Assembly (NCBI RefSeq): GCF_007197995.1
Contig: NZ_VKKH01000003.1
Location: 186,001 to 250,000, forward strand
Direction: 5' to 3'
DNA length: 64,000 nucleotides
Source of the DNA: Aliiglaciecola sp. M165
GTDB lineage: Bacteria > Pseudomonadota > Gammaproteobacteria > Enterobacterales > Alteromonadaceae
Shown here in pieces: positions 46,359 to 47,714 of the stretch. The stretch's first letter is position 1. Each line of letters begins with the position of its first letter. The translations under genes were made by a program, and so were the position numbers. The notes beneath the pieces were generated by a model. That model searched no databases. It saw nothing but the letters and a program-made list of their open reading frames with translations, and was not told the origin of the DNA.

Positions 46359-46386
46359 TTTACAGTGTGTGTTTTTCTGATAGTAT
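46359..46386 (+). promoter_or_regulatory. Promoter of tRNA-Tyr
   Basis: TTTACA, a 16-base spacer and TAGTAT followed by the GC-rich discriminator ACGCGCC, the usual stable-RNA layout. The predicted transcript would start about seven bases before the tRNA. Confidence 0.65.
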
Positions 46387-46399
46387 ACGCGCCTCTTTC

Positions 46400-46484
46400 G
46401 GAGGGGTACCCAAGCGGTCAACGGGAGCAGACTGTAAATCTGCCGGCTCAGCCTTCGCAGGTTCGAATCCTGCCCCCTCCACCA
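46400..46484 (+). tRNA. tRNA-Tyr (anticodon GTA)
   Basis: An 85-base class II tRNA. The acceptor stem GGAGGGG pairs with CCCCTCC, the anticodon stem-loop GCAGA-CTGTAAA-TCTGC gives GTA (46434-46436), a long variable arm follows, the T arm is GCAGG-TTCGAAT-CCTGC, and the 3' CCA is encoded. The last 12 bases and the next 10 are repeated exactly 268 bases downstream. Confidence 0.97.
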
Positions 46485-46762
46485 TCTTTTCTAAATACCT
46501 AGAAATCCAATTCACACAAAATCAAATAAATTAGTCCTTGAAGGGGCTGGACGAGAAGCTGCGACACGCAGTTCGACTAACTTGTCGGGAACAAGTTAAA
46601 ACATGCGAAGCATGGCCCGAAGGGCGCCAATTGAATACTTGGGAGTAGAGGCAATAACACATCCATGTGGCTTAATTCCAGCCCAGCATCCCTGCTGGTC
46701 GTTCAAGCAGAAGGCGCAGTGCGCCTAAACTCTGCTTTCACCCCCTCCACCATCTTTTCTAA
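46473..46762 (+). repeat. tRNA-Tyr 3'-end duplication enclosing a structured spacer
   Basis: The 22 bases at 46473-46494 (tRNA acceptor 3' strand, CCA and 10 downstream bases) recur exactly at 46741-46762. The 246 bases between contain a run of hairpins: CTGCG-ACA-CGCAG near 46559-46571, AACTTGT-CGGGA-ACAAGTT at 46579-46597, ATGC-GAA-GCAT at 46602-46612, GCCC-GAA-GGGC at 46614-46624, CCAGC...GCTGG near 46678-46698, and GGCGCA-G-TGCGCC at 46712-46724 inside a GCAGA/TCTGC stem. No protein-coding reading is convincing. The layout recalls the rtT repeats behind E. coli tyrT, where units end with a copy of the tRNA-Tyr 3' end, but sequence homology is not implied. Confidence 0.8.
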
Positions 46763-46771
46763 CTTCGTATG

Positions 46772-47137
46772 CTATTTTGATTCATGTTTAATTTTATCCA
46801 ATATGGCGAGGTTTTCAGGGGATATAGGCATAGACTTAAAAGCGCTAACATTCGCACCTCCCGTATTCCCTCTAGGAAGTAAACCCAAAGAGGTTTTTGT
46901 TATCGCACCTATAATCCTCAAGATCTGACCGAATACTTCATTGGTATCACCCTGTCTAAATCCGTATTTCAGCATTTCAAAATGCACACGAGTATGGAAA
47001 TACGTAGAGTGCTGGCCGAGTACATGAGCATTTTCAAGGTGTCGAAATCCCTCTTTACTTTGGTCGTTTAAAAATGCACTTTTTGCCATGTGCAATCTTT
47101 CCACAACGTAAGGTTTTACTGCTTGCCTGATATTCAT
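46772..47137 (-). CDS. DUF3703 protein
   Basis: A 121-residue protein with the DUF3703 pattern: RHLENAHVLGQHSTYFHTRVHFEML and LGLLPRGNTGGANVSAFKSMPI. The histidines in the first half could bind metal. DUF3703 genes are often found beside MerR-type regulators of heavy-metal resistance, as here: the divergent gene is a CadR/PbrR-like regulator and a MerR-type promoter lies upstream. The biochemical role is unknown. No cation transporter accompanies it in this window. Confidence 0.75.
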   Translation of the reverse strand: MNIRQAVKPYVVERLHMAKSAFLNDQSKEGFRHLENAHVLGQHSTYFHTRVHFEMLKYGFRQGDTNEVFGQILRIIGAITKTSLGLLPRGNTGGANVSAFKSMPISPENLAILDKIKHESK

Positions 47138-47306: not shown

Positions 47307-47714
47307 ATGAAAATTGGCGCCTTGGCTCAAAAGACTGGGTTGAGCATTCAAACAATTCGATTTTACGAACGTCGCGGCCTTTTGCCCAGACCCGAACGCA
47401 CACAAAGCAACTACCGCATTTACTGTGCCAGCGCACTAAAGCAATTATTATTCATAAAACAGTGCCGCTCATTGGACATGTCAATAGCCGAAATCGATCA
47501 ACTATTGGTGACAAAAGCGAAACCAGAAAACAGCTGTTCTAGTGTTAATGAAACCATTGAACGGCATATTGAGGATGTGAACAACCGCATTGATGAACTC
47601 ACCGCCCTACAACATTCACTGCTTTCAATTAAATCAGCATGTGCTGACAACGTAAAAGTCAAAGATTGTGGTGTATTAAATGAATTGGAAAACGTTGCCA
47701 ATTCTGAAGATTGA
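47307..47714 (+). CDS. MerR-family metal-responsive regulator (CadR/PbrR-like)
   Basis: A 135-residue MerR regulator. The winged helix opens MKIGALAQKTGLSIQTIRFYERRGLLP; a long dimerisation helix follows. Three cysteines lie where CadR/PbrR bind Cd or Pb: one in ENSCSSVNE and two in SACADNVKVKDCGVLNEL. It should activate the divergent 19-base-spacer promoter when metal is present and may repress its own gene. The metal (cadmium, lead or zinc) is inference from the cysteine layout. Confidence 0.88.
   Translation: MKIGALAQKTGLSIQTIRFYERRGLLPRPERTQSNYRIYCASALKQLLFIKQCRSLDMSIAEIDQLLVTKAKPENSCSSVNETIERHIEDVNNRIDELTALQHSLLSIKSACADNVKVKDCGVLNELENVANSED

Follow-up and report, generated by a model that had tools for sequence, protein, structure and literature searches.

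An rtT-like hairpin unit behind tRNA-Tyr in Aliiglaciecola sp. M165 holds a core that appears to be an overlooked type of very small insertion element

Anatomy of the unit behind tRNA-Tyr

The window, a 64,000-nucleotide stretch of contig NZ_VKKH01000003.1 (assembly GCF_007197995.1, positions 186,001 to 250,000) from Aliiglaciecola sp. M165, contains an intact tRNA-Tyr gene (GUA; 46400–46484, + strand) recognized by ARAGORN and by Rfam (RF00005, 57 bits). The acceptor 3′ strand of this gene, its CCA, and 10 downstream bases constitute the first copy (46473–46494, + strand) of a 22-bp direct repeat, the second copy of which (46741–46762, + strand) forms the closing end of a hairpin-rich unit. 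The initial annotation had reported this repeat, and it is real: the + strand of the window has exactly two occurrences of the 22-mer CCCCCTCCACCATCTTTTCTAA, starting at 46473 and 46741, which are 268 apart and enclose 246 bases. The repeat of the tRNA-Tyr tail stretches to 29 nt at 90%, and we estimate that the chance expectation for a 22-nt repeat in 1.4 kb is far below one. The dense secondary structure claimed between the copies was borne out as well, with 46485–46765 folding at −80.9 kcal/mol (z = −3.2; equally stable shuffles, 0/200) and the GNA hairpins CATGCGAAGCATG and GCCCGAAGGGC lying in tandem at 46602–46625. Only the tRNA itself reaches its cut-off in an Rfam scan of the window.

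An AT-rich spacer (46495–46539, + strand), in which a + strand scan found no terminator-like site, leads from the tRNA tail to the unit. The unit opens with a 5′ arm and hairpin P0 (46540–46576, + strand), in which the acceptor/T-arm of tRNA-Tyr is repeated in inverted orientation (GAAGGGGCTGGACGAGAAGCTGCGACACGCAGTTCGA); its match to the reverse complement of the tRNA scores 13, a value reached by none of 500 shuffles (best, 10). The last bases of the arm are TTCGA, the sequence of the tRNA T-loop and the flank normally found to the left of the module that follows, an rtT-like 71-nt core with four hairpins (46577–46647, + strand). Hairpin 1 (46577–46599, + strand) carries a CGGGA loop on a perfect 8-bp stem, hairpins 2 (CATGC(GAA)GCATG; 46602–46614, + strand) and 3 (GCCC(GAA)GGGC; 46615–46625, + strand) display GNA triloops, and hairpin 4 (CCAA...TTGG; 46627–46642, + strand) is degenerate in this copy. 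A second, “type 2” hairpin module (ACACATCCATGTGG...CAGCATCCCTGCTG...TTTCA; 46648–46740, + strand) comes between the core and the tail copy. The core’s usual right-hand junction is lost in the window; the inverted T-arm is present, and the part of the tail with which it pairs (TCCTG) is replaced by the second module. We regard the unit as very probably a composite of an inverted T-arm, a core, and a second module with a tail copy. That its 5′ half is an inverted T-arm and that it comprises two hairpin modules had escaped the initial annotation. On the far side of the unit, the − strand encodes a DUF3703 protein (46772–47137) adjoining a MerR regulator (47307–47714).

Units of this type were also found behind tRNA-Tyr in congeners. 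Eight of the nine genus genomes were testable, G008 being left out because its contig stops after tRNA-Tyr, and five of the eight (own genome included) carry a unit there, two of them truncated as judged by eye. G004 possesses three tandem units 178 bp apart, G005 has two with the second truncated, and G001 and G003 retain truncated units; no unit was seen by eye in the 330 nt after the best-matching tRNA-Tyr of G002, G006, and G007. In the loci read first, 19 of the 28 tRNA genes are accompanied by a near copy of their end (at least 14 of the last 18 nt, within 1.5 kb), and some of these copies are second intact tRNA genes; the window copy is unsuited to this test because it is only 12 tail bases long. 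A separate array in the same genome (L040, contig C26, 2067–2980) combines two intact tRNA-Lys genes, a tRNA-Lys copy interrupted in its T-loop by a core, and several units, and may represent a series of intermediates.

Distribution and junctions of the core

A covariance model (R1; 71 positions) was built from 22 aligned cores, with the window copy outside those 22. Compensatory, both-side changes were observed for 18 of the 20 consensus pairs, and the cores mostly start with C(T/A)AA, mostly end with GTA, and hold four hairpins. R1 retrieved 11 copies from the genome of M165 (E ≤ 0.1), the window copy being full-length at 63.2 bits. The initial annotation had held that the lack of a related unit in any relative would count against it; such units were found in 18 of 98 genomes by DNA search (own genome included) and in 218 of 295 family genomes by R1 (E ≤ 0.01). 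R1 further matched 109 of 295 order-set genomes (E ≤ 1e-4), 119 of 321 class-set genomes (E ≤ 1e-6), and 72 of 349 phylum-set genomes (E ≤ 1e-6), and so reaches beyond the class; these four sets overlap, include the own genome, and differ in E limit, and in the large sets at most 14–17 candidates per genome were scored. An exact DNA pattern retrieved 0 stretches from the genome contigs, and a looser one retrieved 9, from Kosakonia, Phytobacter, Hafnia, Vibrio ostreicida, and a gammaproteobacterial MAG. Spread of the core by plasmids or phages was set aside: a single core query matched none of 72,556 plasmid records or 50,697 phages at E ≤ 1e-3, a search that diverged copies could escape.

Over 85 sources, R1 yielded 171 hits, of which the weakest 17 were dropped to leave 154 for analysis, 147 of them distinct; these loci are a biased sample because they were chosen mostly among the best-scoring hits, and tandem or related units among the 147 are not independent. 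The initial annotation had proposed a covariance search for the unit behind other tRNA genes; cores follow many tRNAs, 5S rRNA, and tuf. The nearest upstream gene within 1200 nt is one of these in 103 of the 147 instances, the hosts being tRNA-Arg, Glu, Ser, Pro, Lys, Tyr, Ala, Phe, Gly, and Asp, tuf, and 5S. In a further 10 a tRNA (Ser, Gly, or Leu) starts downstream within 600 nt, and for the remaining 34 no tRNA, rRNA, or tuf gene lies within range. Hosts at the order level comprise Val, Gln, Glu, Lys, Ser, and 5S, and those at the class level and wider Arg, Val, Gln, Pro, and Ser. For 88 of the 147 cores, a same-strand tRNA, rRNA, or tuf gene ends no more than 400 nt upstream, compared with 32 of 415 random positions in the same loci, a control that counts tRNAs only. 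Relative to the nearest tRNA within 400 nt, 86 cores are on the same strand and 4 on the opposite one. Immediately before the core, 147 of the 154 instances have an A.

Sequence following the core is copied upstream in 77 of 147 instances versus 22 of 373 controls. For 72 of the 147 distinct instances, the 3′ flank also exists as a copy with no core before it (75 have no such copy), and this testable set allowed the junctions to be read. In 45 of the 72 the core sits flush inside the gene-end copy, the left flank matching for at least 4 nt, versus 4 of 288 shifted comparisons; these 45 include one (L132, 2339) compared with another core-bearing unit, and the other 27 are not flush. Most flush junctions fall in the T-loop (TTCGA^ATCC or TTCA^AATCC), and others are CCGTGA^A in tuf, ATGTGA^ in 5S, and GCGGGA^ATAG in tRNA-Gly. 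Copies of tRNA-Ser and tRNA-Leu were also seen by eye to carry clean insertions in their D-arm, and a tRNA-Gly copy to carry one near its acceptor. Cores abut one another with 0 nt between in six cases; one locus (L139, 3688–3975) contains four head-to-tail cores of exactly 72 nt each and equal model score. A tRNA intron was considered and rejected, as a tRNA gene was recovered on removal of the core in 3 of 190 instances, no better than the control (9 of 747), and the three restored copies look like pseudogenes because their 3′ ends are changed.

An empty site was identified in the same genome, in which one tuf copy (L048) is filled with a unit and the second (contig C24) is empty. The two agree at 100% (rounded; one difference) over query positions 1–203 and at 97% over 309–609, with the filled copy longer by 203 bp. 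The additional 203 bp run, in order, through an inverted AGTTCTTCCACC-gaa-ACGGATT, a direct TCCGTGA, the core, and the gene end through a terminator-like hairpin. Among congeners, the tuf ends of G001 and G005 are empty and that of G003 is filled. Taken together, the junctions and the empty site display insertion as a pattern.

In many relatives the core sits flush in a second, partial copy of a gene end that adjoins the intact gene, and the sequence 5′ of the core often includes that same end in inverted form; an arm-like stretch is visible by eye in L038, L039, L044, and L045. In 71 units whose core is preceded by a GAGA motif, a set related by descent that includes rows with a non-tail right flank, standard pairs between arm and tail amount to 54.6% against a shuffled mean of 47.4% (0/2000), and at positions 5–10 to 47.9% against 38.9% (0/2000). 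Exact inverted-arm matches of at least 8 nt occur in 17 of 147 instances and 11 of 404 controls; the median match equals that of the control (5 and 5), and by this measure the arm is weak in most units. Some units thus have a distinct arm, and in others it is weak or has decayed. In Kosakonia and Phytobacter (L183–L187, L189), the core adjoins rtT-like sequence behind tRNA-Val/Lys in most loci, and L185 and L187 display an exact inverted T-arm (GATTCGAACCTGC).

Relation to RtT and other structured repeats

The initial annotation compared the locus in layout with the E. coli tyrT rtT repeats, and the parallel extends further than layout. Two G004 units behind tRNA-Tyr score 47.3 and 46.5 bits against RtT (RF00391), above the cut-off of 45, and a tRNA-Lys unit of G002 reaches 42.3 bits, with weaker ones besides. 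The order of parts is the same in E. coli tyrT/tyrV, where an arm complementary to the tRNA tail, GAGAAGC..GGTTCGA, GNA-loop hairpins, GAGTA-ATCC, and a tRNA tail copy succeed one another. Like RtT, the window unit lies behind tRNA-Tyr and closes with a copy of its 3′ end. It gave no match to RF00391 at gathering in the window, or at E ≤ 10 over 46380–46800, and is therefore termed rtT-like rather than a member. The window copy differs from E. coli rtT in its second module, and the core differs from RtT in occurring also behind 5S, behind tuf, and within other repeats. R1 finds no match to E. coli rtT at E ≤ 0.01 and the G004 units pass RF00391, so we treat R1 and RF00391 as overlapping but divergent branches. 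Bridges between them are the G004 units and the Kosakonia and Phytobacter loci, in which the core stands beside rtT-like sequence by eye.

Within the order, RF00391 matched 39 of 197 genomes (E ≤ 0.001, own genome included), 26 of them above the cut-off. Twenty order RtT loci lie behind tRNA-Tyr (6), Ser (10), Pro (1), or a tRNA-Val with a Lys-like tail (1), with no tRNA in view for 2. RtT has already been described beside tRNA-Asn and tRNA-Lys in Actinobacillus pleuropneumoniae and, in E. coli, in many tRNA operons (PMC4986893).

The second module recurs elsewhere, and 46657–46705 matches copies in the own genome and in congeners at 78–85%. In other units its place is occupied by ATCC plus tail (ATCCTG). 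Rfam scans of five second-module loci identified 5S rRNA in two (L006, L032), where the module copies finish, by eye, with CCCC and a 5S-like tail; similar modules finish with a tRNA-Gly tail (L034) or a CRISPR repeat end (G030). In the latter genome, type 2 modules are spaced by ~140–220 bp, adjoin a CRISPR array (RF01317 hits; L022 and L042 on contig C12, with L022 1127–1798 on the − strand), and in some cases finish in copies of the CRISPR repeat 3′ end. The reverse strand of the second module resembles TwoAYGGAY (RF01731) in its ATGGAT- and AGGGAT-like hairpin loops. A match of 46.5 bits (cut-off 43) was obtained for L025, which may carry the same module as the window; unlike L025, the window has no match to RF01731, falling below the 43-bit cut-off and remaining without one even at E 10.

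Hairpin loops of the core point to a further comparison. Of 133 distinct cores, 98 close hairpin 2 with a triloop, which is C(GNA)G in 81, and the hairpin 3/4 region has GNA in 102 of 111 triloops. Within 150 nt of cores, GNA accounts for 78 of 206 triloops and C(GNA)G for 41 of 206; away from cores, in 60 of the loci, the corresponding counts are 17 and 3 of 279. GNA loops are described as extraordinarily stable in DNA (PMC4686876), and their predominance makes us lean toward single-stranded DNA. The likeness to d(GCGAAGC) DNA mini-hairpins lies in the C(GNA)G triloops that dominate hairpin 2; the difference is that these are a physical motif rather than a genetic family. A strand test counted 57 G·T against 18 A·C (p = 7e-6) and settles neither RNA nor DNA because the signal rests on one pair, the counts being 22 and 15 without it.

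Insertion, processing, and slippage as origins

The reading that we judge best overall, and to which we give about an even chance, is that of a small hairpin element that inserts where GA^A sites are single-stranded, the gene end being copied by template switching. The core would be an insertion module without genes that invades single-stranded DNA at (G/C)A^A, probably on the exposed sense strand, and makes no target duplication. For an essential target, the cases that survive would be those in which a template switch during replication fused an intact gene end with the one bearing the core, an event that would leave the fold-back arm and the tail copy. Tandem units could then multiply through unequal exchange between tail copies, and in the window the second hairpin module would later have replaced the right flank of the core. 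Neither an enzyme nor any movement of a core was observed, and this course of insertion, survival, and multiplication is put forward tentatively as a whole, its chances falling somewhat short of even. With its units at tRNA, 5S rRNA, and other gene ends, the core looks like an overlooked, rtT-related kind of tiny insertion element, and no description of it as an insertion was found in the open-access literature (titles and abstract openings). Bolder, and in our view doubtful at perhaps a third of full confidence, is the proposal of a new class of mobile element: a ~71-nt gene-free DNA hairpin cluster with GNA loops that makes no target duplication, occupies single-stranded GA^A sites of tRNA T-/D-loops, 5S, tuf, and hairpin repeats in the sense orientation, occurs in many lineages of the phylum, and has left E. 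coli rtT as one fossil.

In several genomes, many identical cores ride inside larger unrelated dispersed repeats. Spread by hitch-hiking is thus also possible, and copy number is no proof of the core’s own mobility because dispersed identical copies travel in other repeats. In the 13 copies read in one genome (L266–L278, G811), which differ slightly, the core occupies the tip of a dispersed repeat of the form CCCTCTCCCTCTGGGA..GGGTGAGGG.

Of the three origins offered in the initial annotation, the small mobile repeat is the one we favor; slippage or template switching may account for the inverted arm and tail copy, and a tRNA-processed structured RNA is unlikely as a general explanation. In the last account, the unit would be cotranscribed with tRNA-Tyr, cut out during tRNA processing like the E. 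coli rtT RNA, and act as an sRNA, with the arm/tail stem mimicking an acceptor/T minihelix. Sibling units are homologous to RtT, whose RNAs are reported to be released from tRNA transcripts and to modulate the stringent response (PMC4986893); the structure is conserved, and the + strand between tRNA-Tyr and the unit is free of terminator-like sites. However, homologous units stand behind 5S rRNA and tuf, after a terminator-like site in L021 (5S, by scan) and after a terminator read by eye in tuf, which argues against a general role in tRNA processing. The scan found no terminator on the sense strand of tuf in L048 and L031, where the hairpin’s own A/T pairs may absorb the T run. The presence of cores within unrelated dispersed repeats and of units in only five of eight testable genus genomes, two truncated by eye, also speaks against processing, and we consider it unlikely for the unit as a whole.

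Neutral slippage, in which gene ends duplicate by replication slippage and hairpins grow by quasi-palindrome correction with no insertion module at all, appears rather improbable. Tandem units, tail copies, and inverted arms are products of slippage and template switching, and rtT copy number is itself variable (tabulated as a 175-bp VNTR in PMC2658671), but the core recurs with constant ends in unrelated genes and sites throughout the phylum and sits flush at different sites, which slippage at a single gene would not produce. Even if it fails for the core, this account survives for the arms and tail copies.

Movement of a REP-like element by a Y1/RAYT transposase would fit a short, structured, intergenic, strand-specific repeat that lacks a target duplication, features reminiscent of the short structured extragenic repeats of the REP/BIME type. 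REPs are described as having a GT(A/G)G head and an imperfect palindrome (PMC2817692), whereas the core lacks that head and possesses four hairpins and a gene-end copy. The Y1 transposase family (PF01797) is present in 64 of 118 family genomes and absent from 54; none was found in the genome of M165 at E ≤ 1e-5 despite its 11 cores, and among 20 listed Y1-less genomes, 16 have cores, 6 of these with 13–17. A Y1/RAYT-driven REP as a requirement is ruled out by these genomes, and the reading as such is very unlikely. The direct repeat of the tRNA 3′ end would suit attL/attR of a tRNA-directed integrative remnant, but the unit spans only 246 bp, the repeat differs with the host gene, and the nine neighboring ORFs (42.5–50.2 kb) contain, as the initial annotation had stated for integrase, no integrase or transposase by Pfam, leaving an integrase island dismissed and the remnant with a negligible chance.

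Should the core be an insertion module at tRNA, 5S, tuf, and repeats, the family will have to be viewed anew, as something mobile or as a structure at the DNA level, and attention turns to the enzyme or replication process that moves it. The filled and empty tuf pair and the flush junctions render insertion directly testable. The unit also supplies copies of tRNA tails, which can be taken in error for the att sites of an integrase. On the reverse strand of the window, core hairpin 2 with a T-rich stretch (46614–46602, − strand) is terminator-like, as is its counterpart in L048 (975–963, − strand).
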